Assembly: GCA_033439265.1 (NCBI GenBank)
Contig: JAVTVX010000030.1
Location: 7,451,774 to 7,515,773 of the forward strand
From: Dillenia suffruticosa
Lineage: Eukaryota; Streptophyta; Magnoliopsida; Dilleniales; Dilleniaceae
Length of the DNA: 64,000 nt
Reading direction: 5' to 3'
In this document: one piece after another, positions 1-62,793 of the stretch
Numbering within the stretch: position 1 is the stretch's first letter
How the letters are laid out: the number at the start of each line of letters is the position of its first letter
The notes under the pieces: model-generated
The model's input: only the letters and a program-made list of their open reading frames with translations
The model's database searches: none
Told to the model about the DNA's origin: nothing
Translations under genes and position numbers: made by a program

Positions 1-807
1 ATAACATCTGATTTTTTCTTTCTTGTTTAGTTTCTTAAATTCTCTTCTCTCTTTGTTCTTCTTTCTCATCGTAAACCTTTTAAATTTTTTGGTGAGAAAT
101 GCCATATTTTCATTATTATCATCACTCAAATTGTCTTTATCGCTCTCAGCTTTAAAAGCTATTGTTTCGCATTTCTCCTCATTTCCTACTCCTTTGGAGT
201 TTATCTTCATCCTAGGGGGTTGTTAGTAATTCTACCAGCTGATCTATTATCAGAGTTTCTAAATTATTAGACTCACCTATGGTTGTGAACTTTACCTGCC
301 AAGATTTGGGCATGCAGCTAAGGATTTTATCTATCATATCCTCCTAACTAATTCCCTTACCAAACAATCTAAGATCATTTGTAATCGTGTTGAACCTAGT
401 GATTATTTCTTTAGCTGTCTTCCCATCTCTCATCTTAAAGGTTTTGTATTCTTATTTTAATATCCTAATCTTATTTTTCTTAATGTGATTTGTTTCTTCA
501 TAAATATCCTCTAGTCTATCCCAAAGTTTTTTTGGCAATTCTACAGGATGAAATTTTGTTGTATTCATTTAAGCTAAAAGCAAGATAGAGAAGATTTAAA
601 GCCTCACAATTTGCTCAATATGCTTTATTCTCCTCAGTAGTCATGTTCTTCATTTCAAATGGAACTCTAACACCATGTTGTCTCATCTTGTGCTATGATG
701 AAGTTTTTCATTATCTACTTCCAATAGCTATAGTTGTTCTCATTGAAGAAGGGTGCTCTGTTTGTTGACCAAATTTTGAGTAAAACACTATCGCCATTCA
801 GTGCCAT
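1..807 (-). pseudogene. Ty1/copia retrotransposon gag remnant (window-edge truncated)
   Basis: Reading the minus strand from a start codon at 807 gives the classic plant Copia gag opening: MALNGDS, then NRAPFFNENNYSYW, where related elements have NRPPLFNGNNYxYWK. Further on come the gag (UBN2-type) signatures LWDRLEDIYEE, KTFKMRDGKTAKEI, FNTITNDLRL and MIDKILSCMPKSWQ, each in one of several frames. A TAG follows SYWK, and frame jumps are needed throughout, so the gene is dead. It would have encoded the capsid/nucleocapsid polyprotein. The reading continues off the left edge, so protease, integrase and reverse transcriptase would lie outside the window. It sits directly downstream of a primer-binding site (854-867) and LTR, in the order expected for a minus-strand element. 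Family call is secure; lineage within Copia is not resolved. Confidence 0.8.
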
Positions 808-853
808 TTTAGATCTTTACTTCTGAGATTGTTAAACTTTTTTTCCAAAGGAT

Positions 854-867
854 CTGCTTTGATATCA
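854..867 (-). other. Retrotransposon primer-binding site (initiator tRNA-Met type)
   Basis: On the minus strand this reads TGATATCAAAGCAG, two changes from the usual plant Copia primer-binding site TGGTATCAGAGC. It lies between the inner LTR edge (870) and the gag start (807), which fixes the element's orientation. Confidence 0.75.
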
Positions 868-2180
868 ATTGAAGAAATAGTTGCTTACAAGCAAAAGAGA
901 GGTGAATAGTAAAACCAACTAGATTGAACAAATGCTAGTCGAACCTTACAGTTTTTCTCGCAAATAGTTCCTATTAACTTTATATAGAAGCAGCAAATCT
1001 CATATGTTTCGCTCAACACATTTTAAATGCCTAGACCAAAGGAGTCCTTCCTTCTGTTCTTTTACAAGATTTATAAGTAAAATGAAAATACAAGATGAAG
1101 CTTTAACTTCAAATGTTTTGTTATAGCACAAATAGGGAATACAACATAGAAAATAAATTTAGATCATAGAAGATCTTTGTTTAATTGTGTTCAATGATGT
1201 TCAAAAGTTCTAAAGTTCTCCAATCTTCTCTTGGAGTATTGTGTTTAAAGTGGTTTTATAAAAATAATTGTTTAATCTCATTAAATGACTTAAAGATAGC
1301 TGTTGAAGGTTGTTAAGGTTCATTTAATGTTCAAACAGCTTTGTTGAACAATTGACTGTTACTCACATTGAGTTGATTCCTTTCTTCAGGTTGCCTGAAA
1401 TTTGATTTCTATAATGTCTCGGCTAGTGGAAGTTGACTTCATATGTATGCTATGTCAACTTGTGTTTTAAATTTCCTAAGTGCTTTTGCTTTGTTGTTCA
1501 TGCAGGTTAGCTCGTGTATGCTTTAGGTCGACTTGGGTTTTAATCTATTTAAGTATTTTTCTCCTTATTGCTCGTGCAAGTCAACTTGTTTATGTTTCAG
1601 GTCGACTTGTGTTTGATGGTACTTAAGCTTTTTCCTATTATGTATGTATGTAGGTCAACTGGCTAATTTGTCTAGTCAACTTGGTCTCTTCTTGACTCAA
1701 ACAATTCTTACCTTAGGACTCATGCAAGTCGACTTGTTTTAGTCTTAGATCAATTAGTGCACATGTTCTATGAAATCTATGTTTAAGGAGGTCGACTTGT
1801 GTAATTGATAGATCGACATGAGCATCGGATGACAAATATATTTTACAATGTAGCTCATGCAAATTAACTTATTATTGCTTATAGTTGACTAGTGAAAATG
1901 TTAAGTGAAATTTATGTTTTGTATAGGTCAACTTGTACAATGGTCAGGTTGACTTGGGCCCAATTAGCTTTGAACTTTTCACTATGATGCACATATAGGT
2001 CAAGTGCTTATAATGCCTAGATCAACTTGAGTTTGAGCTTGCTTAAAAATTTCTAAGTCCAGTTCATGCAGATCAACTTGTGTTGGTGATGAGTTGACTT
2101 AAACCAAAGGTTACTTCAAAAATTCAAGTCCTGGGTGAGTCAATTTGTGTTCCACAGATTTTTCTAAGTGTTTGTGTGGC

Positions 2181-3218
2181 TAGGACTAGCAATTGGGTCG
2201 GACTAGTCTGAGCTCAACTCAAGCATGGCCCATTTTGAAGGGCCGAGCTTGGCTAGTTTTACGGCCGGGAGCTTGGTCCCCTTATTTAGGTCTGGGCTAA
2301 GCTTGGACATCAGTTGGCTTGGCCTGTTATAGGCCCGTCCCGTCCGAAGCCCCAAAATATAAGACCAAGACTTGAAATCTCCCCCTCTCTCCCCTATTTG
2401 TATTCTGCATCTCTCTCTCTCTCTCTCTCTCACTCTCTCTCTCTCTCTCTATCTCTCACGTCGATGCTAACACTGTTACATTGGTGGTGAGATTGATGAG
2501 TTTGTTGGCAAAGGTTCATCCAACCGACAACATGAGACTGAATACGATAGATAGATCTAGATTTTGCGACATCTTCTTCCACCACATCGAGCGCCACAAT
2601 CGCGGGGATAGATCATCCATGGAGGGGGAGATATTTAGCATGATCTGCCATATCAGAAGCTTCGAGAATAGCAAGGAAGGAAAATGAGCTCCCACGTGCT
2701 TCAAAAGGAAGTATTGCGCTCCCTCCCTAAATGGAACGACGTCATCTCTGGCCATTGGAAAATTGTGAAAATCTTGGAGATCTATGAATGGTCATCTCTT
2801 TATGCATTTCAATGGCTGATCGCTTACTTCAACATCTGCGATTGCTACATAGGAACTCTTGATTAAGTCGATCGAATCATCGATACTCTTCTCGGATCGA
2901 TTTCTCCCGATGGTGTTGATCAGATCTCTCTCTCTCTATCTCTCTCTCTCTGGTGTTGATCAATCCAAACATAGTCTTCTGATCAGGTCTCTCCCTCTCT
3001 CTCTCTCTCTCTTTTTCTCCCTCTCTTTTTGTTTTTAAGGTTTAAATCGAGCTCAAGTATAGCTCGAAATGGGCCCGAGGTCCTTTTAATTTTTTGGGCT
3101 AAGTTCAAGCCTTGATTTTTCAAGTTTTCTCAAATCGAGTTCGAGTTTGGCCTCATAAAATTCTAAACTGGCTAAGCATTTTGTAAAGCCTGGCTCAAAA
3201 AGCTCGATTGCCAACCTA
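2181..3218. mobile_element. Non-autonomous hAT-like transposon nested in the Copia LTR
   Basis: The left end TAGGACTAGCAATTGGGTC pairs with the right end read in reverse, TAGGTTGGCAATCGAGCT. Both resemble the plant hAT terminus (C/T)AGGGGTGGCAA. Flanking 8-bp sequences TGTGTGGC (2173-2180) and GTTGCGGC (3219-3226) agree at 5 of 8 positions, as an aged hAT target duplication would. Subterminal sequence is rich in GGGCC, GGCTTGG and GAGCTCGA words, typical of this group. No transposase was recognised; the interior has two CT tracts (2410-2456 and about 2929-3012). It is about 1.04 kb long. Confidence 0.65.
2410..2456. repeat. CT microsatellite inside the hAT-like element
   Basis: A near-perfect CT run of about 45 bases. 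Short ORFs crossing it are low-complexity artefacts. A second CT-rich stretch lies at about 2929-3012 in the same element. Confidence 0.9.
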
Positions 3219-3714
3219 GTTGCGGCAGATCGACTTGTTGTAAGATTTGATTGACTTGAGATTTTGTATAAGTCTACTTATTCTAATTTTTTGCTGTTAG
3301 ACTTTTAAATTTTTGTATATTGCATCTATTGGATAAGTCAACTTGTGCTTTAGGCAGGTTGACTTGTTCTCATACTCACACTTAGTTTTATTCACAATTT
3401 GTTCTTCTAGTCGACTTGATTCCTAAATGAGTTGATTGACTAACATTCTGTCATTGTTTAGAGTTTGATTTATACTTGAAAAGTCGACTTGGCCTTTAGT
3501 TAGTCGACTTGTTCAACTTTTGTTTTGCTTAGAAGCTTGATTTACACTTGGCAAGTTGACTTGTTTAATGGGTGAGTCAACTTGTTTACATCTGCAACTA
3601 AATTAACTAGTTTTAAGCATTCTTAAACCTATTTTAAATTCTTCCATCAATTTATCTTACTTTTGCTTATCATCTAACCTAGTTTTGCTCTTTATCAAAA
3701 CATATTTTCCAACA

Positions 3715-4837
3715 AAGCTTATTGTATATTTATCAACGGTTCATCAATTTGTTTCTATATTTTTTCAATCATTTGTTAGAACAAATAATTGAAAAATAAA
3801 ACCGAAAATGGAAGTGCATATAAAGTCAAAACAAGCTGTAATCTAAAATAGTATAATTAGTTTATAGAGTTAAGACTAGTTTGGACAAACTGTTGTCAAA
3901 ACCAAAATACAAAGTGCAATAAGAAATATCAACACAAATATTAACACAATGACCCGGTTTAGATATATATCTATAAACTCAACACAACATGTAAATTATC
4001 ATTAAATTAGCAAACTTTGAATTGATATTTGTGTCATTCATTTTCATATATGTGACTTTGTAGAGTGCAATTATGTCAGGTTTCTCTATTGTCTCTGATT
4101 CCTAAAATTAAAGTGTTAGCAATTGAGAGAGAGAGAGAGAGGAAAAACAAAACCTTTACCAATTTCCTTTATTTTCTGGTGAATGATTTGGATTCACTGG
4201 TGTGTGTATACTTTTGTTGGGTTCTATTTAGTTTTCCAATTTTTAATTGTTTTGTAATGATATCTAAGTAAACAATATGGTATTTCTCAAAAAATGTTCT
4301 TACTTTTCTATGCTTTGAATACCAGTGTGAAATTAGTGCTTCCTACTCAGGAGGGAAGTGACCGTCTTGGATATTTTGTGAAACCTCTTCAACTGTTTTG
4401 TTATTATCACAATATTGTCTTTTTAGACTATATCTGTACTCTTTATATTTTGTGAAAATAGATTGGAGGACAAATTTACTAGTAGCGGCGTAATTGTCAG
4501 TATCATTAGACCCCGAACATGTTCCGACAATTATACTTGAAAGTTTTCAAAAAAAGTATCTTTATGAATGTTTTTATTCATTCTTTGATGGAGCAAAGAT
4601 TTTGTGCTAGGTATTATGACTGAGTAGGCAAAATTGGGAACTCTTAGCCAGAAGTCCACAAAAGTTTGCTAGTATCTGAGATCCATATCTTACTGCTTAT
4701 ATTTCAGTATTGAAAGATACAAAAATATGTTGTGATTTTAGATCTCATATATCCTTTAAAGTTGTTCTCTCTCTTCTACAGAGACTTATAACATTATCTA
4801 CTGTAAAATGGCATAATAAATTAATAAACCACCTTAA
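3715..4837. other. Intergenic sequence, nothing recognised
   Basis: AT-rich sequence between the Copia LTR and the CACTA-type field. It has a short GA run at about 4124-4140 and no coding signature I recognise in any frame. Confidence 0.5.
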
Positions 4838-7800
4838 CATTATAAAAAAAATACGGTTTTAGTGACGGAATTTGGTGACGGAAAAAATTCGTAACTATTT
4901 TACAACAAATTTAGTGATGAAAAATTTTTTTGTCTCTATTTTGTAACGAAATTTACAACAAAAAAGTAATCGTGGCTAAATTAGCAACCGATACTTTATT
5001 CGCAGCTAAATTCGTTGCTAATTGGTAACGAAAAATTTTTCATTGCTAAATTCGTCACTAATTAGCAACAAAAAATTTTTTATTACAAAATTCGTTGTTA
5101 ATTAGCGATGAATAGAAATTTCGTAGCTAAATTTTGCCATGAATACTGTTATTCGTTATTAAATTTAGCGACAAATACTCTATTCATGACAAATTTTGAA
5201 GCTAATTAACTATAAAAATTTTCTGTCACTAAATTCGTCGCTAATTAGTCACAAAAAATATTTGTCACAAAATTTAGCAATGAACTCCAATATTCATGAC
5301 TAAATTCGTCACTAACTAATCATAAAAAAAATATTCGTGGCTAAATTCGTTACTAATTAGTCACAAAAAATATTTATGGCTAAATCTGTCACTAATTTAT
5401 TACTAATATTTCAAAATTCATAGCTAATTTCGTAACTAATTTCGTAACTAAATTTCTTCTATAATTTATTAGGAAAGATTTTTAATCGTGTCTTTCGTAT
5501 CTTTCTTTTAACCTATTCTGAATAATGAAATCGAGTTAAATATATAGTGAATGTTAAAATTATCACTAAATGGATAATTTTCAATAATAAATAATTCTAT
5601 CAATCTCTAACAAACAATTTTCTATCAATCGCTGCTATCGAGTTCACTCTTTATGTTCTTCATCTTCTACTTCCGTTTACATCTCTTATAAATAGTTCAA
5701 TCGTCTTTGAAAGTTTAGCTATTAATCTTCATTCATCATCGTCATCGCAAGGAAAACAATAGATCATACATCCACGTCCAACAATCCATTTCGTCTGGCA
5801 AATAGATCAAACAGTAGTTTTCGAAAAACAACAACAATAAGACGAATGGCTACTAAGAGGCGGCTGTCCATTTACAAACTATTCTAGGGTTTCAAAAAAA
5901 ATAAAATAAAAAAGAATAAGAATAATGAAATAATAAAAGAAAAGAAAAAATAAGAAAATAAAATATAAATTGGTCATAGAAAAAAAAAGAATTAAATTAG
6001 CGATGGATACGGTTATCCGTCGCTAAATTAGCGACGAAAATTTGAATCTATTGTTGAGTTACTGACGGATATAGGAATCTGTCGCTAAGTTAGTAATGGA
6101 TATGAGAGTTCGTCGCTAATGCGAAGGATATGAGGATTTAGCAACGGACTCCGAAAATCCGTAGCTAAATTTAGCAACAGATTCTAGAAATCCGTCATTA
6201 AATTTAGTCACAGATATGAGAAATCCGTGACTAAATTTAGTGACGGATTTTCAAAATCCATATCTAATATTAGCGACGAATATGAGGAATCCGTGCCCAA
6301 CTTAATCTTTTTTTTTAATTAGTATTTTAAATTATAATTATTTTATTTTATTTTACTTTATTATTTTATATTAACAGATCATATTTATTATTTTATAATA
6401 TTTTAAATTAGTATTTTATTTTTTAAAGAATAATATTATTTTATTTTAATCTTTTATTATTTTATTTTAAATTAGTATTTTATTATTTTATTATTTTGTA
6501 ATAGTATGTGTCACTAATTAAGCGACGGATACTAAATTAATATTTTTTTTTAAAATTAGCAATTTATATTTTATTTTATTATATTTTTATTTTATTTTAT
6601 TATTTTATTATTCATTTTATTTGATAAATCAAAAAAAATAATTGATGATAAAATTAACAAATCATATTCCTTTTATTGGATAAATCAAAAAAATAATTTG
6701 TTATTTTATCTTAATTAATCAAATTTATCTTTTTCATTCATAAAATTAGGATTTAACGACGGATTTTGAAAATACGTGGCTAAATTTAGCGACGGATTTC
6801 TAGAATCCATGATTAAATTTTACGATGGATTTTTAGAATCTGTGGCTAACTTAATCTTTTTTTTTAGACTAGTATTTTATATTTTATTTTATTTTATTTT
6901 ATTATTTTATATAAACAATTCATATTTATTATTTTATAATATTTTAAACAATATTTTAAATTAGCATTTATTATTTTATTATTTTATAACTAGCGACGGA
7001 TACTAAATTAATATATTTTTTATTTAAATTAGCATTTTATATTTTATTTTATTATTTTATTATTTATTTTATTTGATAAATCAAAAAAATAATTGATGAT
7101 AAAATTAACAAATCATATTCCTTTATTGCATAAATTAAGAAAAATAATTTATTATTCTATTTTAATTAATCAAATTTATCTTTTTATATCAAAAAATGAG
7201 GTTTTAGCGACGGATTTAGGAAATCCGTCGTTAAATTTAGTCATAGATTCTGAAAATCTTTTGCAAAATTTAGCCACAGATATGAGAAATCCATGGCTAA
7301 ATTTAGCTACTGATTTTCGGAATCCATGGTTAAATTTAACCATGAATTTCCGGAATCCGTGACTAACTTAATCTTTTTTTTAATTAGTATTTTATATTTT
7401 ATTTTATTATTTTATATTAACAATTCATATTTATTATTTTAGAATATTTTAAACAATATTTTAAATTAGCATTTTATTTTTTTATATTTTATTTTTTAAA
7501 GAATAATATTATTTTATTTTTTAAAAATCTTTTATTATTTTATTTTAAATTATCATTTTATTATTTTATTATTTTATAACTAGCAACGGATACTAAGTTC
7601 ATATATCTTTTATTTAAATTAGCATTTTATATTTTATTTTATTATTTTTTCTTTTATTTTATTATTTTATTATTCATTTTATTTGTTAAATCAAGAAAAA
7701 TAATTAATGATAAAATTAACAAATCATATTCCTTTTATCGGATAAATCAAGAAAAATAATTTGTTATACTATCTTAATTAATCAAATTTATCTTTTTGCC

Positions 7801-26326: not shown

Positions 26327-26747
26327 AGTTTTTGGCACCGTTATAAGAGATCTTTTAACATCTAATATTAGTTTTAATTAATAAACTTGTAGTATAGGAT
26401 GAAAAAAGAGAGAGATAATTTCGTGTGTTTTCCTTTGACTTTCTTGGAGGAATATGTATTCAAGAATGCACTTTGAACGAAATATTATCTGTATTTATCG
26501 TAATGGAAACAATTCCTATCATGAGTGTGTCGGAGGTAATTATCATCATCAACCCCCCTTTAATAACACTATTCTGTCTAATTTTAATAGATAATTTAAT
26601 CCATACAACAATTGCTACAATCATATATAGATGGATCAACAAAACCTTTTTTTTTGGACCAAAATCATGTGGTCCCACCTCCATATGCGGAATTTCAACA
26701 TCCACATAACAGATCAAGTTCTTGGCAGCAACCAATACCTGAATTAC
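26327..26747 (+). pseudogene. Ty3/gypsy 5' leader and gag fragment, split by a MULE
   Basis: After the primer-binding site, one frame reads ECVGGNYHHQPPFNN then NPYNNCYNH. Another reads VVPPPYAEFQHPHN then SSSWQQPIPEL. This Asn/Gln/Pro-rich composition with short C and GG words resembles gag C-terminal regions of Athila-like elements, but no diagnostic domain survives. The fragment stops at the 9-bp target site of the MULE. In the same frame, PEL is regained after it (29268 onward reads ELQPSRV). This supports insertion into an existing gag. Confidence 0.45.
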
Positions 26748-26913
26748 GGGTTATTTACCGAAAGAGGGTTATTTTAAAAATAAATTTCAAAAATATGTTT
26801 TTTTTTTGCTTCCTGTTGTAGCGATTTCGCATTCTCGTAGTACGAAATCATAAATTCTTTTTTTATTTATTTTTTAAGGAAAAAAAAAATTTGAAAAAAA
26901 TTGATATCGTGGT

Positions 26914-26934
26914 ATCGCGCTTGTGGAGCGCGAT
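26914..26934. repeat. Perfect 8-bp stem-loop at the inner edge of the left MULE terminus
   Basis: ATCGCGCT and AGCGCGAT flank a 5-base loop. The same architecture, imperfect, recurs at the right end at about 28992-29017, 29029-29053 and 29085-29105. An AT-rich version (GATTTCG ... CGAAATC) sits at about 26822-26850 in the outer terminus. Confidence 0.8.
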
Positions 26935-27480
26935 TCCATCATCCTATAACCTTCCTGCTCTCCTCTTTCACCGCAATTTCAGTCGTCCCTCTTCTCTCCC
27001 CTGCGAGTTCATTTCCTGCTCTCTCTTCCCACCGCGAAATTCAATTTGTCTCCCTCTCCTTCCCCCGCGAAGCCTCCTGCGAATCCCCCTGCGAAGCCTC
27101 CTCCTCTTCCCGACGAACCCTCCTGCGAAGTGCTACCCTCTCTCCCTCTCCTCTCTCCCGTGACCACACACTCCCCGCCTACAAAGCGTGCTGCTATCTC
27201 TCTTGCAATCGCACACTTCTCTCCTGCGACCACACACTTCTCTCCTGCGAAGCGTGTCGTTGTCTCTCCCGCAACCGCGCAAAGGCACCGCACACTCCCC
27301 CGCGAACTGTCCTGCGAAGCCTGCTGCTCTATCTCCTATGACCGCGTAGAAGCCTCTCTCCTCTCCCCCACAAAGTGTCCTGCATAGCCTGCTGCCCTCT
27401 CTCCCGCGATGTGTCCTGTGAAGTCTCTTCTCCTCGTCCAGCTTTCCCTGTCCTGTCTTGCAAATTCATTGCTCCACTCC
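26935..27480 (+). repeat. GC-rich degenerate repeat leader of the MULE gene
   Basis: Iterated CTCTCCTGCGAAG, CTCTCCTGCGACC and TCCTGCGAAGC-like words, in a region far richer in C and G than its surroundings. Several open frames cross it in different phases (26891-27387), which points to repeat composition rather than a protein. Confidence 0.65.
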
Positions 27481-28661
27481 CCTGCTACTGCGAATAGTTG
27501 GGATGTTCCTCATAACTTTGTACATACTAGGAAGTTCGTTCTTAGAGCATATAGTAACCAGCTCGATCATATGGGAGATATAGGCATGAGTATAGATTCT
27601 TTTTCTTCTCATTCTCTTCGATATCTATATTATTTACTAACAATTTATTTATTTTGTAGTTTATTTGGATGCCCTACTCGCGTGTCGACTTGATGGCATT
27701 GCCCTCTATTGTTTTGTCGGCAGCTATATATGCAGACCGAGATTCTCTTGATTTGTTTTGAGATCGTCGAGTTTCATTACCCCCAAAGGGTAATGAGATA
27801 GTTCGGCCTCCTTCAAAATATTCCTATACCTGTATCTACGGATCGGGAGTTGCACCGCACTGATCGATGTAGGTGGCAGGGATGCAATTGGGTGAGAACA
27901 CACGCCGTACACTTGCAAGTCTGGGAAAACCATACATACCACATTATAGAGGGCAATGACACTTTTAGTGAGTCGAGGACTACACCTGAGTATATGCGGT
28001 GGTATCATTAGATCACCTGTTTATATATTGTCTGTCCTGCCCATTGTTATCGGTACGAATACCGATGCACAGCGATACAAATGGAGTATCTCGTAAGTGA
28101 ATGCACATTTACCATTAACTTAGGGTTTCATATTCATATAATATTTTATTTTTCCTTTTTTTGCAGTGCTATGAATTAGAAAATATGTTCTTACTGGTCT
28201 CAGATATACTCGCTGACGAAAGAGTGGATCCAAGATTTGGAGAGTTTAGAGATACGTCATGGCGTGCCCTTCAATTTGTCGATCATGTGTCATTTGACGA
28301 GGACCGACCTTCGACATCCGCACGCAGACGTACTGCACGCATGGATATGCCTTCGACCTCGGGTGCTGTGGATGATTATGATGACTTGACAGAGTTGCTG
28401 CCATCATCTTCCTATCCGATTCCGACTCCAACTCCGGTTTGTACGGTCCAGGCCGATGAGCCTCCGCGACTTAGTGTCTACGAGTGGAGACGTCGTCATC
28501 CTAGACATTCGGTTGATGCTCCTCCTCTAGTGGCCTTTCCCAAGGTTGATGAGGGTGTACCTTTATACGATATACCTCCATCTGCACCTAGACGACCAAA
28601 TCGTATACCCGTAAGATGTCAGCCACGACACCATGCTGGACGACCTCCTTGCGGCACTTAG
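27480..28661 (+). pseudogene. Plant mobile domain (PMD, MAIN-like) gene, broken
   Basis: Before a frame shift near 27725 the frame reads WMPYSRVDLMALPS. The next frame holds the PMD core LLICFEIVEFHYPQRVMR, a stop (27799-27801), FGLLQNIPIPVSTDREL and PEYMRWYH, then another stop (28009-28011). A GT-AG intron at 28093-28166 joins in phase to a last exon of 165 codons beginning CYELENMFLLVSDIL. That exon ends in a Ser/Pro/Arg-rich tail with SVYEWRRRHPRH. PMD proteins include the Arabidopsis nuclear factors MAIN and MAIL1, which work with phosphatase PP7L, and many transposon-borne relatives. Most of the N-terminal half of the roughly 350-residue domain is not recognisable here. With two stops and a frame shift I call it dead, though the last exon is intact. 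Confidence 0.75.
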
Positions 28662-28785
28662 ATTACATTTGACATTTCTTCTGTATGATTTCAAATTTGT
28701 AAACATGGATTCAAATTTTTAATATAACCATTTTCGTTACTTTCTTCTTATTCGCGTTGATTTCTTATATTGGTTTGCAAGTCAC

Positions 28786-28985
28786 TTCAAGAAAAAAAAA
28801 AGAAGAAATAAAAAAAGTAAAAATAAAACGAAAGGTTGAAGGAAAAAAAAAGGAAGAAAAAGAATAAACTAAAAAAAAAAATCAAAAAAAATAAGCAAGG
28901 ATGAAGGGTAAAAACAAAAAAACAAAAAAGGGTAAATATGTAAAAAAAAAGAAGTAAAAAAAAAATCAAAATAGAGGAAAATAAA
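28786..28985. repeat. A-rich purine tract
   Basis: About 200 bases of AAAAAGAAG-type sequence between the PMD gene and the right terminal repeat. The phenylalanine-rich minus-strand frame across it is an artefact of composition. Confidence 0.8.
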
Positions 28986-29276
28986 AAAGTTACGGCTAAC
29001 GGTATCGCACTTTAGGAGCACGAAACTATTATCACTTTAGAGGAGTGCGATACTTGTTTTGTGCCCCAGAAACGCGATATAGTTATTGCGCTCGTCGAGC
29101 ACGATGCCCATTGTTTCAAAAAAAAAAAATTTCTTCCTTAAAAAATAAACAAAGAAAAAAAGATTTTCTGATTTCGTACTCTAAAAGTATAAAATCACTA
29201 CAACGGGGAAAAAAAAATCATATTCTCATAATTTTATTTAGAATAATCCTATTTCGATAAATAATCCCTGAATTAC

Positions 29277-29748: not shown

Positions 29749-30345
29749 TGGGGGTGGCAATTGAGTTTTTTTAGTCCGGCTTTGCGAAAACTAGGTTTGG
29801 CCCAATTAAATTTTTATGGGGTCAAACCTGAGCCTGGTTTGAGAAAATTTGAAAAATCGAGACTCGGCTTTGGCTTGAAAGATTAAAAGGGTCTGCGGCC
29901 CATTTCGGGCGAAGCTTGGCCTGACACATAAATTTCTTTTATTTTTTGTTAATTTCATTTTTCATATCTTTAACCCATTTTATAATATAATAATACAAAA
30001 AAAAAACACATAAATCATTCAAAATAAAATACAAAACAAATACTAACTATCAAATTAAAGATTACACACTATTATAAAAATTAATAATAATAATGTCATG
30101 AAAAATTTAAAAATTATATCAAAGAGTAATATATTAAAATTATCAAAATCTCCATCTAACCATCGCAATATTGAATTTTAAATCTCACAAAAAAAAAGTT
30201 TTAAATAGACCGAATGTTTAGCTGGCTGGCAATTAAAATGGGCCTTAAAAATGAGCCCAAATTCGACCTGATCCGGAAAATGAGCCCAGGTCGGCCCTTC
30301 AAAACGGGCTGAGCTTGAGTCGACCTGGTCCAATTGTCAGTCTCA
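29749..30345. mobile_element. Non-autonomous hAT-like element, 597 bp
   Basis: The left end TGGGGGTGGCAATTGAG pairs with the right end read in reverse, TGAGACTGACAATTGG. Both are close to the hAT terminus (C/T)AGGGGTGGCAA. Flanks CTAACAAA (29741-29748) and CAGATAAA (30346-30353) agree at 5 of 8 positions. Subterminal GGCCC and GGGCTC words match the style of the element at 2181-3218. No transposase. Confidence 0.65.
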
Positions 30346-37801: not shown

Positions 37802-37862
37802 CTCTCTCTCTCTCTCTTGCAGTGTTTGAGAGTGGCAATATTAGCGGAAGCTTATTACAAGG
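37802..37862 (+). other. 3' splice site and 5'-UTR segment of cofactor E
   Basis: A pyrimidine tract of CT repeats ends in TTGCAG at 37822, a strong acceptor. It is 40 bases before the start codon. This implies an intron in the 5' UTR; its donor exon was not identified with confidence. Confidence 0.6.
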
Positions 37863-39491
37863 ATGCAAAACTCGGAAAAATCAGATTCTTCATTGTCGTG
37901 GGAGTTAAAAATTGGTGATAGAGTGCACGCCATCGGGGATCGTCGAAGAATTGGGACTGTCAAGTATGTGGGAACTGTAGAAGGGCATTCAGGGCTGTGG
38001 GTTGGAGTCGATTGGGACAATGGTGATGCAAAACACGATGGTTCTCTTAATGGGGTTCGCTATTTTCAAGCTACTTCTCTTAAATCTGCATCTTTTGTCA
38101 GACCCCACAATTTCAGTCATGGCATTTCCTTCTTGGATGCTCTCAAGCTCCGCTACTGCAACCATTCCTCTACCAAGCAAGAAGAAGATGAAATGTATGT
38201 TCTTTCAGCAAGCAACCAACGAGTATTGGTGCAGCTTGTTGGGAAGGAGAAAATCGAAGACAAGCTAAGCCGGTTTGAAGAATTAACCACTGCTTCTTTA
38301 TCTTATCTAGGTGTCAACTCAACTGGATTGTCATCCGAGATCAGTGCCATCGTGTCAAATCTAAAGGAGCTTGACTTGACAGGAAATTTGCTTTCCGAGT
38401 GGAAAGATGTTGGTGCAATTTGTGAACAATTGCCAGCTTTATGCGTGCTTAATTTAACCAGCAATAGGATGTCTCATGAAGTCAAGGGACTGCCATCATT
38501 GGAAAACATCCGCGTATTGGTTCTAAATAATACTGGTGTAGACTGGCTGCAGGTTGAAATGCTCAAACAGTGGATGCCAGCAATAGAAGAGTTACATCTG
38601 ATGGGGAACAACATTACGGCAATAATACCTGCTTCCTCTGCTGTTGTCAAAGGATTTAATTCTCTACGCCTTTTGAATTTGGAAGATAATTCTCTGGATC
38701 AATGGGATGAAATCTTGAAGCTTTCACAGCTAAGAGGCTTGGAGCAGCTTTATTTAACCAAGAACAACTTGAGGAAGATTTTTTACCCTGATCATCAGAA
38801 AATGCAAGAGGTTTTTAATGATTATAAATCACTTGAGAGTAGCCACCGGCCCTTCCAAAATCTGCATTGTCTTCTTCTTGGATGTAACAACATTGAGGAT
38901 GTGGCATCTGTTGATTCACTGAATCTTTTTCCCAGTTTAGTGGATATCAGACTTTCTGATAATCCAATTACCAATCCAGGAAAGGGTGGAATCCCAAGAT
39001 TTGTTATAATAGCACGTCTGGCGAAAGTTAAAATACTGAATGGAAGTGAGATCGGTTCACGGGAGCGCAAGGATTCTGAGATTCGGTATGTGCGCTCGAT
39101 CTTGTCAAAGTTTTGTGACAGTCCGGAAGAAATCAAGCAATTCCATCCTAGGTTTGCTGAGCTTAAAAGTTTTTATGGTATTGAAGATAAAAGACCCTCT
39201 GTTAGTGCCACAGGACCGCAGAAAATGGCATCTGGACTTATTTCTATTACCTTGAAATGTGTTGGAGCATCAATCGGAGAAAAGCCACCAGTTACAAAGA
39301 AATTGCCAGCCACCACCACCATTGGGAAGTTAAAGATGCTCTGTGAAAGCTTCTTCAAGCTTAAGTCTGTGAAGCTAAAATTGTTTCTGCAAGAAGAGGG
39401 ATCTCCATTGCCAACATTGCTTGATGATGAGATGGCATCATTGATGGACATTGGAATTGGCCAAGATTCAACAATTCTGATAGATGATTAG
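37863..39491 (+). CDS. TFCE: Tubulin-folding cofactor E (PFIFFERLING homologue)
   Basis: A single uninterrupted 542-codon frame, close to the roughly 530 residues of the Arabidopsis protein. Cofactor E is a cytosolic chaperone: it binds alpha-tubulin and, with cofactors C and D, assembles the alpha/beta dimer needed for microtubules. An N-terminal CAP-Gly domain covers residues 17-85 (GTVKYVGTVEGHSGLWVGVD). Leucine-rich repeats cover about 145-400 (LKELDLTGNLLSEW, IEELHLMGNNIT, LRLLNLEDNSLDQW, LVDIRLSDNPIT). A ubiquitin-like domain covers about 455-542, including LFLQEEGSPLPTLLDDE. The first Gly of the CAP-Gly GKNDG motif is Ala here (AKHDG, residue 56). The start is the first ATG after the acceptor at 37822, and upstream sequence lacks an in-frame extension. 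Both downstream and upstream neighbours are transposon debris. Confidence 0.95.
   Translation: MQNSEKSDSSLSWELKIGDRVHAIGDRRRIGTVKYVGTVEGHSGLWVGVDWDNGDAKHDGSLNGVRYFQATSLKSASFVRPHNFSHGISFLDALKLRYCNHSSTKQEEDEMYVLSASNQRVLVQLVGKEKIEDKLSRFEELTTASLSYLGVNSTGLSSEISAIVSNLKELDLTGNLLSEWKDVGAICEQLPALCVLNLTSNRMSHEVKGLPSLENIRVLVLNNTGVDWLQVEMLKQWMPAIEELHLMGNNITAIIPASSAVVKGFNSLRLLNLEDNSLDQWDEILKLSQLRGLEQLYLTKNNLRKIFYPDHQKMQEVFNDYKSLESSHRPFQNLHCLLLGCNNIEDVASVDSLNLFPSLVDIRLSDNPITNPGKGGIPRFVIIARLAKVKILNGSEIGSRERKDSEIRYVRSILSKFCDSPEEIKQFHPRFAELKSFYGIEDKRPSVSATGPQKMASGLISITLKCVGASIGEKPPVTKKLPATTTIGKLKMLCESFFKLKSVKLKLFLQEEGSPLPTLLDDEMASLMDIGIGQDSTILIDD

Positions 39492-39922: not shown

Positions 39923-39964
<42 letters not shown>
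39923..39964. repeat. CT microsatellite
   Basis: About 40 bases of CT, at the head of the first copy of the 225-bp tandem duplication. Confidence 0.9.
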
Positions 39965-39965
<1 letters not shown>

Positions 39966-40395
39966 GTTCCTCTCTTGTAGTTCTTTCTTCATATCAAGTT
40001 GTAGTTTTCTTAATGAGCTACACCACCTTAATTCTTTCTTATAAATTGTTTGATTTATAAGAGTTTTTTGATACATCAATTCTCTCTTGCATGTGTATTT
40101 TTTATTTTTGTAATCTGGCATGCGGTGAAATTTTATTTCTCTTTCAGGCATTTAGTAGAAAACTCTCATAAAGCTCTCTCTCTCTCTCTAGTTCCTCTCT
40201 TGTAGTTCTTTCTTCATATCAAGTTGTAGTTTTCTTAATGAGCTACACCACCTTAATTCTTTCTTATAAATTGTTTGATTTATAAGAATTTTTTGATACA
40301 TCAATTCTCTCTTGCATGTGTTATTTTTATTTTTGTAATCTGGCATGCGGTGAAATTTTATTTCTCTTTCAGGCATTTAGTAGAAAACTCTCATA
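39950..40395. repeat. Nearly perfect 225-bp tandem duplication
   Basis: Two copies (about 39950-40170 and 40175-40395) run from CTAGTTCCTCTCTTGTAG to GTAGAAAACTCTCATA with only a few differences. Each copy is headed by a CT run. Matching 62-codon minus-strand frames in both are repeat artefacts, not genes. Confidence 0.9.
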
Positions 40396-42309: not shown

Positions 42310-43380
42310 CTGACATGTGATGAGTTGTAAACTCCCGAGAGGGGTGTGTGATGAGATTGAAGAAGCAGTTAGGCGTTTCTGGTGGCATAAAGGTGATGAT
42401 GGGTCCTATATCTCTTGGATGGAATGGATCAAATGTTGCCAAACTAAGGAAGACGGTGGCCTTGTTTTCTGCAAGCTGGCTGTTTTCAATCAAACTCTTT
42501 AGGCCAAGCAAGGTTGGAGGTTGACTCATCCAAACACATTGCTAGGCAAAGTTCTCAAAGCCAGATATTTCCCTCACTAACATTCTATGCAGGCTACTTT
42601 GGGTCACAATCATAGTTACCCGTGGAGAAGCATTGGACAGAGTTGGGTTGCTGGAAATGGTCTGGTCCATAAAAATTTGTAAGGGCAAATGGTTGCCGTG
42701 TCGGTTTGGCTTTAGAATCTGGTTCCCAAATAATGGTCTGGATGCTTTTTTTTTTTTTTTGGTCCCTAGCTTGGCCACCACCCAATATCCGAGATTTCGT
42801 CCCAACTAATCTGGACCGATCCGTTGTCAAACCCACTTTCGGGGGTATCTTCCAACATGGTTTTTTCTATTTCCATGCCAAGTAGAACCCAGGCATGGTT
42901 AAAGGGTCTCAGCGCCCTTTCCACTCCCTTCCCACGGCCAACCAAACGTTGGTCTGGACGCTGATGCTTTCTTGGAGCAGCTTACGGATTCAGATTTTAA
43001 GAGTTGGAAGCTGTCTCTCCTTGGTCTTTTTCTTACCATTTGAGCTAGAGCAAATTCGATCTATCAGTTGGCACCTTCCAAAGAGTCAATTATCTTGGCA
43101 CTTCAATAAAAATGGTATCTATTCTAGCTGAAATGGGTTTATGTGAGCTTGATGTCGGATACCAATGAGCAGTATTTTCAAGTAGTGGTACTACGGATTC
43201 TAAGACATTGGTGGTCAACCTTGTGGAAACTTCAAATCCCTCCCAAAATCCGACCTTTTTATCTGGAGAGCGCACAGAGAAGCCTTTCCTGCTTGTGAGA
43301 ATCTTGCTATTAGACTTCCTTTTGCTGATTCTTAGTGTAATATATGCAATGCTTCTGTGCTTTGAAAGAATGTTCATAGG
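42310..43380 (+). pseudogene. LINE ORF2 fragment, copy 1
   Basis: Plus-strand reading gives LPRGVCDEIEEAVRRFWWHK then SYISWMEWIKCCQTKEDGGL, and AKQGWRLTHPNTLLGKVLKA. This is the region just after the LINE reverse-transcriptase core (family form: IPxxVCxxIExxxxRFWWG). After the SINE insertion it continues toward LWKLQIPPKIRPF, the zinc-finger (zf-RVT) domain entry. Stops and frame shifts occur throughout. The homologous fragment in copy 2 is at 57130-57950. Confidence 0.75.
42747..42949 (-). mobile_element. SINE inserted in copy 1 only
   Basis: About 200 bases present in copy 1 and absent at the same site in copy 2. It is bounded by TGGTCTGGATGCT (42734-42746) and TGGTCTGGACGCT (42950-42962), a 13-bp target duplication with one change. 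The plus strand begins with a T run, so the poly(A) tail is on the minus strand. Minus-strand sequence has a B-box-like GGGTTCTACTTGG. Its 3' part, ATTAGTTGGGACGAAATCTC and GGATATTGGGTGGT, resembles the 3' region shared by many angiosperm SINEs. No coding capacity. Confidence 0.8.
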
Positions 43381-43419
43381 ATAGGGGCATTTTCATTTTT
43401 TCATTTTTTTTTTTTTTTG

Positions 43420-43880
43420 GGGTGCTTGACCTACAATTCTTTTTTCACTTATTTGATTTTATAAACAATGTCAACTTCTAACTTATAGTTAGCATAATTG
43501 CTTCATTATTGCTTGCATAATTGCTTATTTGACAAATACATGGCTTGGTCTTCATCATCTGTAGGTTTCCACCAGATAAAGACTTGAAAGTTTTAACGAG
43601 GATTTTTGTGGGGCGGGGGGAGGGGAGTTGCCATCTAACTAGGCTTTTGTTGGGAGGTTTCACTGATATTAGTGAGATGACAGGGCATGGAAGGATTACG
43701 TGACTTTGCTTTGTCTCTGTACTGATGTTGAACATATGGTACCAATTTTTGCTGGGATAATTGTGTGTGACAACTATTATTAGGATTCTAATGCTAGTGG
43801 AAGTATTTTTGTTTGTCAATGTTTGCTACGTGGTCTTTTATTTTATTTTATTTTTATCTTTATTTTTGGTATTAAAAGTA
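43420..43880. repeat. Segment present three times in the window
   Basis: The same sequence (CTACAATTCTTTTTTCACTT ... ATAATTGCTTATTTGA ... GTAGGTTTCCACYRGA ... GGATAATTGTGTGTGACAAC) occurs here, at about 56600-57060 and at 57970-58440. The plus-strand frames in it (for example 58099-58335) are unrecognised. Confidence 0.75.
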
Positions 43881-43968
43881 CACTTTTTTAGTGAATGGCA
43901 TGCACAAGATATGGTTGACCTTGTCAATCCCATCCTTCCCGAAAAGATTGTGCAGAAAGATACAATTT

Positions 43969-44003
<35 letters not shown>

Positions 44004-44004
44004 C
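43969..44004 (-). mobile_element. Poly(T) retroposed tail with 16-bp target duplication, copy 1 only
   Basis: A run of about 33 T bases lies between CAGAAAGATACAATTT (43953-43968) and CAGAAAGATACAAATTT (44005-44021). Copy 2 has a single CAGAAAGATACAAATTT and no T run (58510). This is what an extremely 5'-truncated LINE-mediated insertion on the minus strand leaves. Confidence 0.75.
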
Positions 44005-44390
44005 CAGAAAGATACAAATTTAAGATTGTACAGATGAACAGATGACTATTGAAACAATTAAATGTTCTTCACTCAGGCATACGTTTTTAATTTCAAACAA
44101 AAAAAAACCCGACCAAAAATGAGGAGGTACTCTCATAGATATCAAATCAATGAGAGTTTCATGGAATACTTCATGCACACATCACACCTCAACATCAACA
44201 ACACTTTATAATTTACTTGGTAAATCATATCCCGATTTATTTCATAAAATGTGCCTACAAGATAGCAATCATACCCACGAGAAAACTATAACGTATACAA
44301 TGCTAGATTTTATGGTAGCATCAGAACATTGCACTTGGCTTGCAGTGTAATGGACTAGTCACAAACAGCACCCCTGCTGCTTTGTTCATC

Positions 44391-46039
44391 TCAGGCCGCA
44401 TTTACCTTTTCCTGACCTTCATTATCTCTGGCAGCTGATGCTTTCCATTTTATAAGTTGATTCCGAACTGCAGCGCCTAACGTTATAGCAGCAGTGCTAT
44501 GCAGAAAAGGAGAAATATAGGAATTCCATTGTTCCTCTGGAGTGATGAATGCCATAGAAAGGACTACAGCTCCAGACATGAACACTAATGCTACCACAAA
44601 AAATGGCATCAGGGGAGACCCTACTGTGAGGATAACCATTATGATGGATGAAATGAAAAACGCATACACATTGAAAATAACGAACAGGTAAAATGTGAAA
44701 GGCCATGTAGCCATTACTGCAGTTCCAACCCTGCGTGACGTAGTTGTAGTGTCAGTGTTACCAAAGGTGATAGTGCTGCTATTGGAGTATGTTTGGAGGT
44801 TGACTTGCCAAACACCACCGGGAGGATGGAGTATATTGAAAAGGCATATTAAAGCAACCAAAAGGGAAATTAGGAAGATCCTATTCTGCAAGTCTTTTGA
44901 AGCAACACGACCAAACATGGATAGTTTCCTTTTTGGTTGTGGAAGTGACGAACTGGGAGTAATTATCTGACTTGCAGATACAGCCCCAGCACAACGAAGG
45001 GCAGATTCTATTTGTTCATCCCCTTCTTCTCTTGGTAGCTGCATAAATATGTCCAGGGCTGTCAGATTGTTCATATTTGTTGCATTTACATCCACATGAC
45101 ATACTTCTGCAGTAGTGTTGCTGCCGAGAATTGCTACAATCATCTGTCAAGACAATTTGAAAAGTTTGATTTCTGCATATGACAATTGAAAAGAAAAAAA
45201 AATTCCAAATTTTCAATGCGAAAATTGCTTGCTCCTAAAAAGAAGAAAAAAGGTATGTCCAGAGGCCTTTCCTTGTGTTGCTTTGTGAGGACAGCGAGAT
45301 GCAGGACAGTGTTCCCTTCATCATCCTTCAAATTCAAAAGCCCCTCCTTTTTTATTTTCATCAGATCGTCCCTGATCATGATGAAATCTTCTATTTCATT
45401 CTTCTCAAAAGAAAATGCTAATATTTTGCTCAGAATCTCATTTCTGTCAATTAGTTTTCCTTTTCCGCTCAGTGCTGAAAATTTCTCCAGGATTCTACCT
45501 TTGGTGGCAAGAAAAAGCGCAGCCAACTCGGCCTCTTCCTCATAGATTTCGTTGAGCCATTGAAGCAAGATACTAAATGCTTCCAACTGGTTACACTTTA
45601 CTGCTATGTGAAGGGCAGTCTCTTTTCGGATAGTCAACTCAGCAAGGCACTGAGAGTAAAATTTGCGCAGTAGGTTTATGACTTCAATTTGTCCGGTCAT
45701 GACAGCACAGTGAAGAGGTGTTCTCTTCTCTCTTCCTTTCAGAAGATGGAGGGTAGAGTTGATCGATAGGAAGTCCTTCACCAACTCAACTTGACCGGTT
45801 GCTGAAGCCAAGTGAACGGGGCTTAAACCATCGTGATCTAGCTTGGTTACAAAAGATGGCTTCAGATTGGCGATCTCCTTGGCGAAACGGGTTTGCCTTG
45901 ATGACACGGCTATGTGCAGTGGAGTTTGAGAAAATGGAGATTTGTCTATGTTATTCAGAACAAAAGGATTTTCTTGGAGTAATATGTACAAGGAATCTAT
46001 ATCGCCGGCTTGAGCAACATGGACCATTGTTAGCTCCAT
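44391..46039 (-). CDS. Ankyrin-repeat/PGG-domain membrane protein, BDA1-like (copy 1)
   Basis: Two exons: 46039-45272 and 45143-44391, giving 506 residues. Exon 1 encodes ankyrin repeats over about residues 1-256 (QTPLHIAVSSRQ, GLSPVHLASATGQVELVKDF, RTPLHCAVMTGQIEVI, ETALHIAVKCNQ, GNTVLHLAVLTKQHK). Exon 2 completes the last repeat (VNATNMNNLTALDI), then has a PGG domain with LHPPGGVWQ and about four hydrophobic helices. The family is plant-specific, with roles in immunity and cell-death control (BDA1, ACD6). The codon phase joins cleanly only if the 128-bp intron starts with GA at 45271 and ends with AG at 45144; no usable GT exists nearby. I chose the start conserved in copy 2; an upstream ATG at 46069 is in frame here only. 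Reading through the intron would give a soluble ankyrin protein ending at 45140. Confidence 0.8.
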
Positions 46040-47524
46040 TGCTCCTCTTGAGTAGGAACAATTTTGCAAGACCTTATTGCCTTCTTTATGCTACTGCAAA
46101 TGCAACCTAAGTCAAGTGTATTAGGTTGGACCTAGTAAATCAATGACATTATATATATATTCATATCCTTTCAATGACTAAGCAAACATTTAAAAATAAC
46201 GAAAAATGTATTTGAATTACCTTGTAAGTTACATGTAACTTCTGGGATGATGCAAATCCAATATTTTAACACAAGTAAGACCAGATAAATTTGATACATG
46301 TCTAATATAATATAAATGAAAACAACACTAAACACTTCATTTTCAAAAATAAATAAATCAGTCTCGTACCCAAAAGAGACTTCCCCTAAAGAGCACCCAA
46401 AAGGGTTCCATTACTAGTCATTGCATTTTTTGATTATTTTGGGTGAAGATGCAAATCAAACCGGTGCCTATTTATGTGCTAGAGTGTCTATAGGTGAGGA
46501 AATGGGCAGACCCAAAAATTAACAAAAAGGAAAATCTGAGCATTTAGCTTGACAGAAGCAATTTGTACTAGAAATCAATTTTTTCATCTCTCATAACTTT
46601 GTACCTTGAATCTTACAAATCAATCTGTAGGTGCGTACCTATGAACTTATTATACTTTTGGGTGTATTACCCATATCGCTTTATGATATGATAGGGTATT
46701 GAATTTAACAATTATTTTAGCTGAATTAAATTCTTATGAGTATGTGACATTTTATTTACTCATATTTTTATTGTTAGCAGCTGAAATTGAATGGTCCTAA
46801 TGGGTCAATGCCCTTACAATATTTATAAATATGTAATAAATAATTTGGGTTGTATCACATTTGGGCATTCTTACACAACAATTTTGATCCTTTCATTCCC
46901 ATGACTTCCTTTGTGGGAATTCCAACCCTTCTCTATGTATACCAGCAGAAAAATATATATATCTATTGCATAGTCCCTCTATAATTTTGTTGGGCTTCTT
47001 CAAGTGTTTGGAAGTCACTTTCTAAGTCTTAGTCCAGTAGCCCTTACAATAAAATAAAACATAACTTTTTATTAGCATTAAAAATTGAAACAACTTAAAA
47101 AAATTGCTACAACCACAAAATTAAAGAATCCAATTCATGGGACAAGATAATTGCCCTATACTTGACCCTCAAGGAACCCTAATTTCTCAAGAATGCACAT
47201 TAGCTAAACCCTATATATCTATGCCCCGACATTTCCAAAATATAGCGCAAACAAGCAAATGCAAACTGAGTCACAACTCCTTAAAGAAAGCCCAGTTGCA
47301 ATGACCTGTAGACTTTCACTAAGTTTTAGAGCTAAATTTTATAATGAGAAAATTGGCAATAATAATAATAATAATAACAGAAAAGGGGGCTGTTTCTCAA
47401 ACCCAACCTTTCGGACAATAACCTGCACTTGAGCCCCAAGAAACCCTAAATTGACGAAGTGGGAATAAATGGAAACCCCAGACAAAACCCTCAAAAACCC
47501 CAATTATGATTCTATCTAAAATTG

Positions 47525-47565
<41 letters not shown>

Positions 47566-47639
47566 AAACACACGAGCAAGCACAATCTTGGAGATATTTC
47601 TTCACATAAAGATCGCTCCAACAATGCTTAGAGGGCTTG
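46040..47639. other. 5' flank of the ankyrin gene, copy 1
   Basis: Conserved with copy 2 (60554-62189). It holds a short AAT run near 47355 and a 33-base A run at 47529-47561, which in copy 2 is interrupted by T bases. No other gene. Confidence 0.6.
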
Positions 47640-48228
47640 CCATAACGTTCTCCATATAGCTGATAATTTGCAGATGAAAAGAATTACTCTTGAGCCTAGC
47701 TATCCTATGTGTACAAAGTGTACTGAATCAGTGTTTCATGTGCTTGTTGGATGTGAATTTGCATCGTTTTGTTGGTTATCAGCTCATATGCATAGTTATA
47801 ATCTTAATGCCTCTATTTTATTTGTTTGGTACCCTACTTTATCTAAGGATTATGACGAGGTGTTGTGTTGTTTGTTTTTCATGATTAGTTGGAGTATATG
47901 GAAGGCAAGGAATGATGTTTTCCGGACTTCCAAGCCTACAAAAATTTGTCAGGTATTAAACTCTCCGGGTCAAGTTTATTATCAATTAAATACAGCTAGG
48001 AAGAAGCAAACATTCATATTGATTGCCATCAGCAGGAGCTTAAGGGTGTGAAAAGGACCAAATGGGGTTAGTATAAGCTTAATATTGACGACACTGTCAT
48101 ATTTCTGGAGAGAGAGAGAGCAGACTTTCACTATATTTCAAGAGATGGTTATGACCCAAGGGGATAGTCTAGTAATCACAGTTTTTTCCTCCAACCCTGT
48201 CATTAGGGGTTAAAATCTAGACTGTAAG

Positions 48229-48267
<39 letters not shown>

Positions 48268-48640
48268 TATTTCAAATGATTCTAGTAGTTTAGTTGTTTA
48301 TTTATTTATTTAATTTATTGCTGGCCTTTTGGTTGGGACTTCTCCCCCAAGAAGTGGAAGTGCAGAGCATTCACGAGGCCTTTAGCTGACTTATGAAAAA
48401 AGAGTTGTCTTATGTCAATGTAGAGGTGGATGGCACTAAAGTAGTTCATGCTATCAAAGAGGTTTTAGTTTATAACTCTTTATTCCGTGGAATCGTTGAG
48501 AATTGTAAGCATAGGATTCAAAACATGCATATGTTAGGATTTGATTTGTTTTTTCATCTATGAATGATGTAGCTCATACTTTAGTAAGGGTCACTTATTC
48601 CATGTTTGATTGTTTGGAGTGGGAGACTCAACCTCTTACT
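47640..48640 (+). pseudogene. LINE 3' remnant (zf-RVT and RNase H), copy 1
   Basis: The frame at 47668-48051 reads EPSYPMCTKCTESVFHVLVG and CEFASFCW, then FFMISWSIWKARNDV. This is the Cys/His zf-RVT segment plus the linker of LINE ORF2 (family form CxxC...ESxxHxLxxCxFAxxxW ... WxIWxxRN). Near 48360-48600 broken frames give KKELSYVNVEVDGTKVVHAI and FRGIVENCKHRI, matching the plant LINE RNase H domain (LSxVxVExDxxxVVxAI ... GxIVExC). An AT dinucleotide run at 48245-48270 separates the two parts. The same remnant is at 62190-63190. Confidence 0.7.
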
Positions 48641-49200
48641 TTTTTTTTTAATTTTTTTACACAGCGATTTGAATCATGAATTTTATAATTGAAGGAAAGG
48701 ATTGTGACTATTAGGTTACCTTTTGGGACCTTCTTAATTAATGAAAAGATGATTTACTTCGATGAAAGTTTATGTTTTATTAAATAAAAGGAAACTATTT
48801 GCTATGCAACACCATACATTGGAATAGACGTCGGTTTTCCTACAAGTAGAAGTTAGCAAAATAGTCGTTACTTAACGAGAACAAAAAAAGAAAGGGAAAA
48901 AACATATACGGAGGTGCACTTTTTATTAAGTGGAACAACCAAGAGACGATGTCTTTTGGTAATCTTTGTCTTAGATCGTCTTTATCTTAGATCGTCGGTA
49001 TTTTGAGTCATCGTCGTCAACCACTAAAATAATAATTCCTATTTCCTAAAATTGATTATCTCAAGTGAGAGATTGATTAACAAGATGAATCAATGTGCTC
49101 TCTCTCTCTCTCTCTCTCTGTATAGGATGCGTCTAACATGGGTATGACATGACATGAAATCTAAATATATTCAATTTGAGATTTAAAATAGCAATACATA

Positions 49201-57950: not shown

Positions 57951-57969
57951 GATAGGAGTTTTTTTTTTT

Positions 57970-61903: not shown

Positions 61904-61966
<63 letters not shown>

Positions 61967-62753: not shown

Positions 62754-62793
<40 letters not shown>

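Follow-up and report, generated by a model that had tools for sequence, protein, structure and literature searches.

A Mutator-like element of Dillenia suffruticosa with a plant-mobile-domain gene remnant, and the longer, transposase-bearing copies of its family

When a Mutator-like element (MULE) encloses a plant-mobile-domain (PMD) gene between long inverted ends, does that gene stand in for the transposase, or is it a gene of the family in its own right? Host PMD proteins such as MAIN and MAIL1 help to silence transposons. The question is raised by a copy at positions 26748-29267 of a 64-kb stretch of Dillenia suffruticosa DNA, here called the window (C30:7451774-7515773 of a host assembly of 596 Mb in 37 contigs). 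A preliminary description of this DNA held that the element carries PMD in place of a transposase, with the gene being either cargo or a family trait.

There is precedent for PMD in such elements. According to Ikeda et al. (2017, PMC5418596), the first description of PMD came with a rice MULE, MULEs captured PMD-C twice, and MURA-PMD fusions occur in several grasses and in Amborella; these authors call an anti-silencing use of PMD by MULEs tempting to speculate, and a 2021 review repeats the counter-silencing idea (PMC8616336). In the account of Dupeyron et al. (2019, PMC6446971), four groups of plant MULEs (Monocots, MDR, MUDRAVI2 and MUDR) have PMD in most of their members, sometimes or often antisense, with duplications of 9 or 9-10 bp where indicated and, across the PMD-bearing groups with TIR lengths in their Table 1, TIRs of 14-421 bp.

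Borders and gene remnant of the window copy

The window copy is flanked on both sides by an exact CTGAATTAC (26739-26747 and 29268-29276), with 9 of 9 bases identical. Its terminal inverted repeats (TIRs), the left one on the plus strand and beginning with GGGTTATTTACCGAA (26748-26885) and the right one on the minus strand (29130-29267), pair imperfectly over ~138 bp: 108 of 134 aligned bases are identical, with 19 transitions, 7 transversions and 8 gap columns. The alignment is gap-free over the outermost 33 bases, and there is also one 59-base ungapped pair at 73%. The local score of the TIR pair was 68, compared with at most 16 in 200 shuffles and at most 22 in 300 Markov controls. Long inverted termini without gaps at their ends, and an exact 9-bp duplication, had both been claimed for this locus, and both are confirmed. 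We rejected an insertion date from TIR divergence and assign the copy no age: the two TIRs may already have been unequal when the copy inserted, and the duplication is still perfect, for which the chance at such a divergence is 0.14.

Inside the left TIR lies a 21-bp dyad of the TIR class (26826-26846), followed by a 21-bp dyad of the subterminal class, ATCGCGCTTGTGGAGCGCGAT (26914-26934), and by a C-rich leader of degenerate repeats on the plus strand (26950-27493). Copies are named here by host contig (C2, C5 and so on) and other loci by L numbers; the C2 copy has the same leader upstream of MURA, at its own left end. The gene remnant comes next, on the plus strand, and comprises a PMD exon remnant (27494-27583, its end placed by sequence reading and comparison with L011), an intron remnant with an AG acceptor and GC in place of the expected GT (about 27584-27659), a PMD exon (27660-28092), a GT-AG intron (about 28093-28166) and a C-terminal tail exon whose frame is open to its own stop (28167-28661). 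Both introns were placed by sequence reading, and eight other PMD loci have a break near the same profile place as the intron at 27584-27659. The earlier claim of a PMD gene with a clean GT-AG intron is accordingly right for the gene and the downstream intron, but there are two intron remnants and the upstream one has GC. Beyond an A-rich spacer (28770-28995) stand four 21-bp dyads in 27-bp steps (29004-29105; starts at 29004, 29031, 29058 and 29085), of which those at 29031 and 29058 have decayed, with 5 and 6 mismatches of 18, and the other two are clear.

PMD homology starts at ~27494, and the window copy lacks profile positions 1 to ~216. Read through with X at two stops and with pieces joined across the introns and the frameshift, the C-terminal part matches PF10536 at profile positions 217-347 of 347 (E 1.4e-21), scoring 77.5 bits against a curated cut-off of 34.9. 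Two of the three single-frame pieces match PF10536 alone, at 0.01 and 8.2e-06 and below the curated cut-off, and the third gives no match. The main exon contains two in-frame stops (27799-27801 and 28009-28011) and one frameshift (near 27745-27760), and the description of this copy as dead is borne out by them. A scan for transposase domains, which covered the tail piece and ten others, with few of the smaller ones, out of 38 frame pieces of 40 aa or more, gave no match; in the piece 27802-28008, also scanned, PMD was the sole match. The MURA of locus L013 gave no tblastn match to the window copy, and an intact transposase, the mark of an autonomous MULE, was not found in it. A 69-aa PMD piece searched against viral and genomic contig collections gave 18 and 81 pattern stretches, none of which was confirmed. 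The window gave no match to Rfam at gathering thresholds, a PDB search by sequence gave none, and there are no further copies within the 64 kb, where matches were short and mostly A/T-rich.

Other features of the window were noted in passing. A ~6.3-kb direct duplication (42950-49200 and 57509-63759; 88%) contains, on its minus strand, frames with ankyrin repeats and PGG domains, and the duplicated block also contains zf-RVT remnants just below the curated cut-off (47632-48048 and 62003-62413). A 548-aa frame with CAP-Gly and LRR (37845-39491) resembles tubulin-folding cofactor E, and a near-perfect 222-bp tandem duplication (98.6%) occupies 39949-40170 and 40174-40395. An inverted pair, 71% identical (29752-29918 and 3054-3216), with one copy starting ~480 bp to the right of the element, is perhaps another short repeat family.

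Longer relatives and internal deletions

The host genome contains many relatives of this element, and the family counts given here are lower bounds. A search with the left end (26748-26950), as had been proposed, returned at least 40 matches including the window copy's own two ends (40 of 48 candidates scored); copy inspection drew on the left-end matches that had a locus, all but ten. A search with the PMD stretch 27494-28700 returned at least 44 rows (40 of 238 candidates scored), which are 78-89% identical, the window copy itself and four short secondary rows excepted.

When the best of lengths 8-11 was chosen for each copy, perfect flanking duplications of 9-10 bp were present in 6 of 10 copies with both ends: the window copy, C26:15109041-15113418, C5:10893975-10895324, C21:1249306-1251145, C2:7823164-7828550 and C20:10360333-10369788, the last read in part in its interior, where PMD is present. 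The remaining four have duplications matching at 8 of 9 (C16:18178958-18183586), 7 of 8 (L013, C17:18243589-18249857), 7 of 10 (C10:25852855-25854798) and 6 of 10 bases (C17:18382317, 2577 bp). Each of the eight other copies that were read from one end to the other (C2, C5, C10, C16, C17, C21, C26 and L013) contains PMD-gene sequence, limited to the tail exon in C21 and C5. Two miniature copies of ~0.8-1 kb, in L039 (C1) and L040 (C19), have like ends and 9-bp duplications, with neither a PMD nor a MURA match inside. Copies with like termini and without PMD, raised earlier as a sign of chance capture, do exist as these two miniatures, but the eight other end-to-end copies all carry some PMD; with many copies sharing the ends and PMD across the family, a single chance capture is not supported and PMD as a family trait is.

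Copies of this family also have a transposase. In L013, whose TIRs start with GGGTTATTTACC and GGATTATTTACT and whose ends are like those of the window copy, one strand carries PF10551 (5.6e-12), DBD_Tnp_Mut (1.4e-05, at its cut-off) and PMD (2.9e-22), with MURA upstream of PMD; it is a MURA-type partner of the sort that the preliminary description had suggested looking for. L014 and L016, relatives with diverged ends, both carry MURA and PMD, and MURA-like sequence was found in 8 of 11 further left-end loci (1.5 kb each side; one of these, L041, corresponds to L013's left end), although in L039 it sits outside the miniature copy. With a duplication in the 8-11 bp range, long TIRs and a MURA-type transposase in the family (L013), the assignment of the window copy to the MULEs holds. 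In its MURA and PMD frame, its 9 or 9-10 bp duplications and its TIR length, the family is like published PMD-bearing MULEs as they are described (PMC5418596, PMC6446971).

The relation of the window copy to these longer copies is seen by alignment to the C2 copy. Positions 1-746 of the window copy align to C2 positions 1-768 (76%) and positions 746-2520 to C2 positions 3611-5387 (82%), with a junction at 27493-27494, where ~2.8 kb (C2 ~769-3610) are absent. The absent segment contains the MURA and N-terminal PMD matches of C2. We read the window copy as an internal deletion of ~2.8 kb relative to C2 that took out MURA together with the N-terminal portion of PMD. The C2 copy itself is without part of MURA, and therefore the original size of the deletion is approximate and probably larger; among the loci read there was no intact MURA and PMD copy with the window copy's termini. 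On the sequences compared, PMD is a second gene of the family and not a substitute for the transposase, because both MURA and PMD occur in longer copies, from whose layout the window copy derives by internal deletion. The claim that PMD sits in place of a transposase is not supported.

This layout also bears on whether the window copy is a Pack-MULE, a transposase-less MULE whose cargo is a captured fragment of a host PMD gene of the MAIN or MAIL type. The window copy alone would invite this reading, with its TIRs, an intron-containing gene fragment and no transposase domain in the pieces scanned; gene capture by MULEs is possible, and Ikeda et al. infer PMD-C capture by MULEs (PMC5418596). 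Like Pack-MULEs as described in PMC6446971, it is a non-autonomous MULE containing gene sequence; unlike them, its gene also occurs in the family's MURA-bearing copies. The same PMD sequence lies at the same place in copies with MURA and like ends, whereas a Pack-MULE would have a gene piece that replaces the transposase and is absent from the transposase-bearing parent. We consider cargo capture very unlikely. An old capture of PMD at the root of the family, of the kind that Ikeda et al. put forward for other MULEs, is nevertheless compatible with these data.

The deletion in the window copy is one of several. The five short copies (window, C5, C10, C17 and C21) have five different junctions, which lie in C2 coordinates at ~640/3489 in C17, ~436/3807 in C10, ~632/4214 in C21 and ~486-635/4516 in C5. 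Differing internal deletions are typical of internal deletion derivatives of cut-and-paste elements. A blastn alignment of C17:18382317 crossed the junction of the window copy, but a deletion shared by the two was rejected: C17 retains intron sequence absent from the window copy, and its junction is elsewhere.

All five short copies keep the tail exon at least in part, and in the window copy its frame is open to its stop, as if the 3' part of PMD and the tail had been retained as a useful short product, for example a dominant regulator, rather than through the position of the deletions. However, an internal deletion of any kind tends to spare the retained part, which adjoins the right terminus; moreover, the PMD exon of the window copy has stops and a frameshift, and the two miniature copies have lost PMD wholly. 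Retention for such a product is therefore hardly probable.

We conclude with high confidence that the window copy is a dead, non-autonomous Mutator-like element derived by internal deletion from a longer member of its family. In that parent the order would have been a TIR with dyads, the C-rich leader, MURA, PMD (on the same strand, with introns), the A-rich spacer, dyads and a TIR. MURA from other, longer copies may recognise the TIR and dyad ends and mobilise deleted copies in trans; it would have cut and pasted the window copy, leaving duplications of 9-10 bp. Internal deletions may arise through faulty or incomplete gap repair after excision. The dyads are putative protein-binding sites, most simply those of MURA, and PMD would be retained since its protein serves the element in a putative role, most likely the regulation of expression or silencing.

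PMD beside MURA across the host genome

The pairing of PMD with MURA was counted genome-wide. A PMD profile search of the host genome gave at least 125 matches (117 of 1536 candidates scored) and a PF10551 transposase search at least 150 (150 of 737 candidates scored). After removal of eight second-exon rows from the 125, 59 of the 117 PMD matches scored had PF10551 on the same strand within 6 kb upstream, at a median distance of 1334 bp and against a chance expectation of ~0.0008 per match. No other arrangement of the two within 6 kb was found among these 117 and 150 matches, and the remaining 58 PMD matches had no such neighbour among the 150. In the window copy's own PMD subfamily, 7 of 40 had an upstream transposase when compared against 18 of the 150 PF10551 rows. 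Decayed MURA escapes the PF10551 list, as L014 and L016 are absent there yet match MURA by tblastn. Unlike published PMD MULEs, by their descriptions, all 59 pairs here are same-strand and the window family's PMD has introns.

We estimated dN/dS between copies with a shifted frame as a rough control, the pairs being non-independent. Medians were 0.33 for the PMD N exon (15 pairs; 0.62 in the shifted frame), 0.43 for the PMD tail (45 pairs; 0.74), and 0.39 and 0.39 for two parts of MURA (6 and 13 pairs; 0.89 and 0.83), while the PMD middle exon showed little constraint (0.52 against 0.60; 28 pairs). The N-exon, tail and MURA medians suggest protein-level selection on PMD and MURA between lineages. 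Against this stand the middle exon and the recent trio of C26, C16 and C2, whose N-exon values of 0.72-0.90 lie above the shifted frame (0.35-0.51), as would be expected of copies decaying after insertion. An unrooted PMD tree of 16 rows gave no single count of PMD captures.

Several other PMD loci were observed alongside. In a young family, L002-L008 (for example C20:1162997-1165709), an open MURA frame of up to 870 aa and a SWIM finger are followed on the same strand by a 490-aa PMD frame; over ~4.08 kb, six loci share 98.0-99.8% identity with L002, the PMD match is stop-free in L002-L008, and the family is possibly still active. L015 (C30:7571907-7578175), ~56 kb beyond the window end, belongs to another MULE lineage with inverted ends 84.6% identical; it has MULE and SWIM domains, DBD_Tnp_Mut just below cut-off and PMD on the same strand. 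In L011 (positions 3656-5584; C11) a stop-free 378-aa frame joins a MURA N-terminal-like stretch, 43% identical over 142 aa to the MURA N-terminal frame of L012, to PMD positions 1-181; with neither inverted repeats nor dyads in 9.9 kb, L011 could be a domesticated or truncated copy. Weak DUF1985 matches in three of the eight PMD members of one alignment, L009 included (best E 0.00068; under cut-off where shown), hint at a distant PMD-DUF1985 link.

Dyad arrays at the element ends

The 21-bp dyads are CpG-rich and occur at both ends of the family, with the form (A/T)TCGC(G/A)CTCnnnGAG(C/T)GCGA(A/T). Counting as a site any sequence that departs from one of three consensuses at no more than 4 of 18 positions, we found 52 sites in ten elements within the outer 300 bp of each end (6000 bp in total), none in 35,715 bp of element interior and none in the other 61,480 bp of the window; a looser cut (6 mismatches, one consensus) gave three sites elsewhere in the window. 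Eleven copies have 58 sites, 14 in the TIR and 44 subterminal, at one to five per end. Of the 23 spacings between neighbouring subterminal dyads, 21 fall on a multiple of 27 bp (17 at 27 bp, three at 54 and one at 81), the others being 26 and 43. At dyad pair 6, all 14 sites of the TIR class have A-T and 29 of the 44 subterminal sites have G-C. By hand count, ~69 of ~99 unpaired cells in the subterminal dyads are of the C-to-T type, a share that would fit decay of methylated CpG.

Genome-wide, at up to 2 mismatches, the dyad pattern occurs at 167 places, compared with 4 for a reversed control; of 50 distinct places listed among the 167, 36 lie within 9 kb of 80 family PMD places or left-end matches, whose neighbourhoods make up at most 0.24% of the genome, and 14 do not. 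Each of the 11 further left-end loci has at least one dyad. None was found in L015, another PMD-MULE read end to end, in 4-kb stretches of L002 and L004 from the young family, which may miss the element ends, or around the PMD loci L001, L009, L010 and L011.

Shared ancestry would explain part of the resemblance among dyads, and the phasing together with the variable number of units suggests a functional tandem array. We do not claim co-variation of the dyad arms beyond ancestry: the paired value of 0.759 lies above the mean of 2000 shuffles (0.710) but below their maximum (0.766), and likeness to palindromic consensuses was itself the basis on which the sites were selected. We also rejected self-identity as a mark of the window copy's 27-bp repeat, as the lag-27 identity of 0.51 is reached elsewhere in the window, and Tandem Repeats Finder did not report a 27-bp repeat in the window copy.

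PMD in a MULE and repeat arrays at MULE ends are both already known as such, the former from PMC5418596 and PMC6446971 and the latter from PMC5735166 and PMC5225508. The target motifs of VANC are described as tandem repeats (Hosaka et al. 2017, PMC5735166), but the VANC21 motif in that account is 9 bp and has a single orientation, whereas here a 21-bp dyad recurs in 27-bp steps adjoining the TIRs; the DOWN-motif example CATGCAGTTT, as given, has no exact match in the element or the window. Muta1 of Aedes aegypti has subterminal tandem repeats in its MULE TIRs (PMC5225508) and, as described, is likewise a MULE with long TIRs and many derivatives varying in repeat number, but its repeats are 12 bp with 3-4 bp spacers and not 21-bp dyads phased at 27 bp, and the description consulted makes no mention of PMD. 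A mostly shallow look through open-licence literature on PMD, MULEs and arrays found no description of a 27-bp-phased dyad array.

A speculative reading, which we regard as unlikely, is that the dyads form a putative helix-phased docking array for a dimeric, element-encoded protein. If this were true and PMD encoded that protein, the element would possess a methylation-sensitive switch of its own, consisting of a site array and its reader; the VANC principle would then have been invented a second time, and PMD would gain a direct DNA target. The phased dyad arrays offer concrete DNA probes for MURA or PMD binding.

For the family as a whole, the picture shifts from a cargo gene replacing the transposase to a second family gene in elements with recurrent internal deletions. 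A much younger MURA and PMD family with open frames exists in the same genome, and what use PMD is to a transposon, given the role of MAIN and MAIL1 in silencing, becomes a tractable question.
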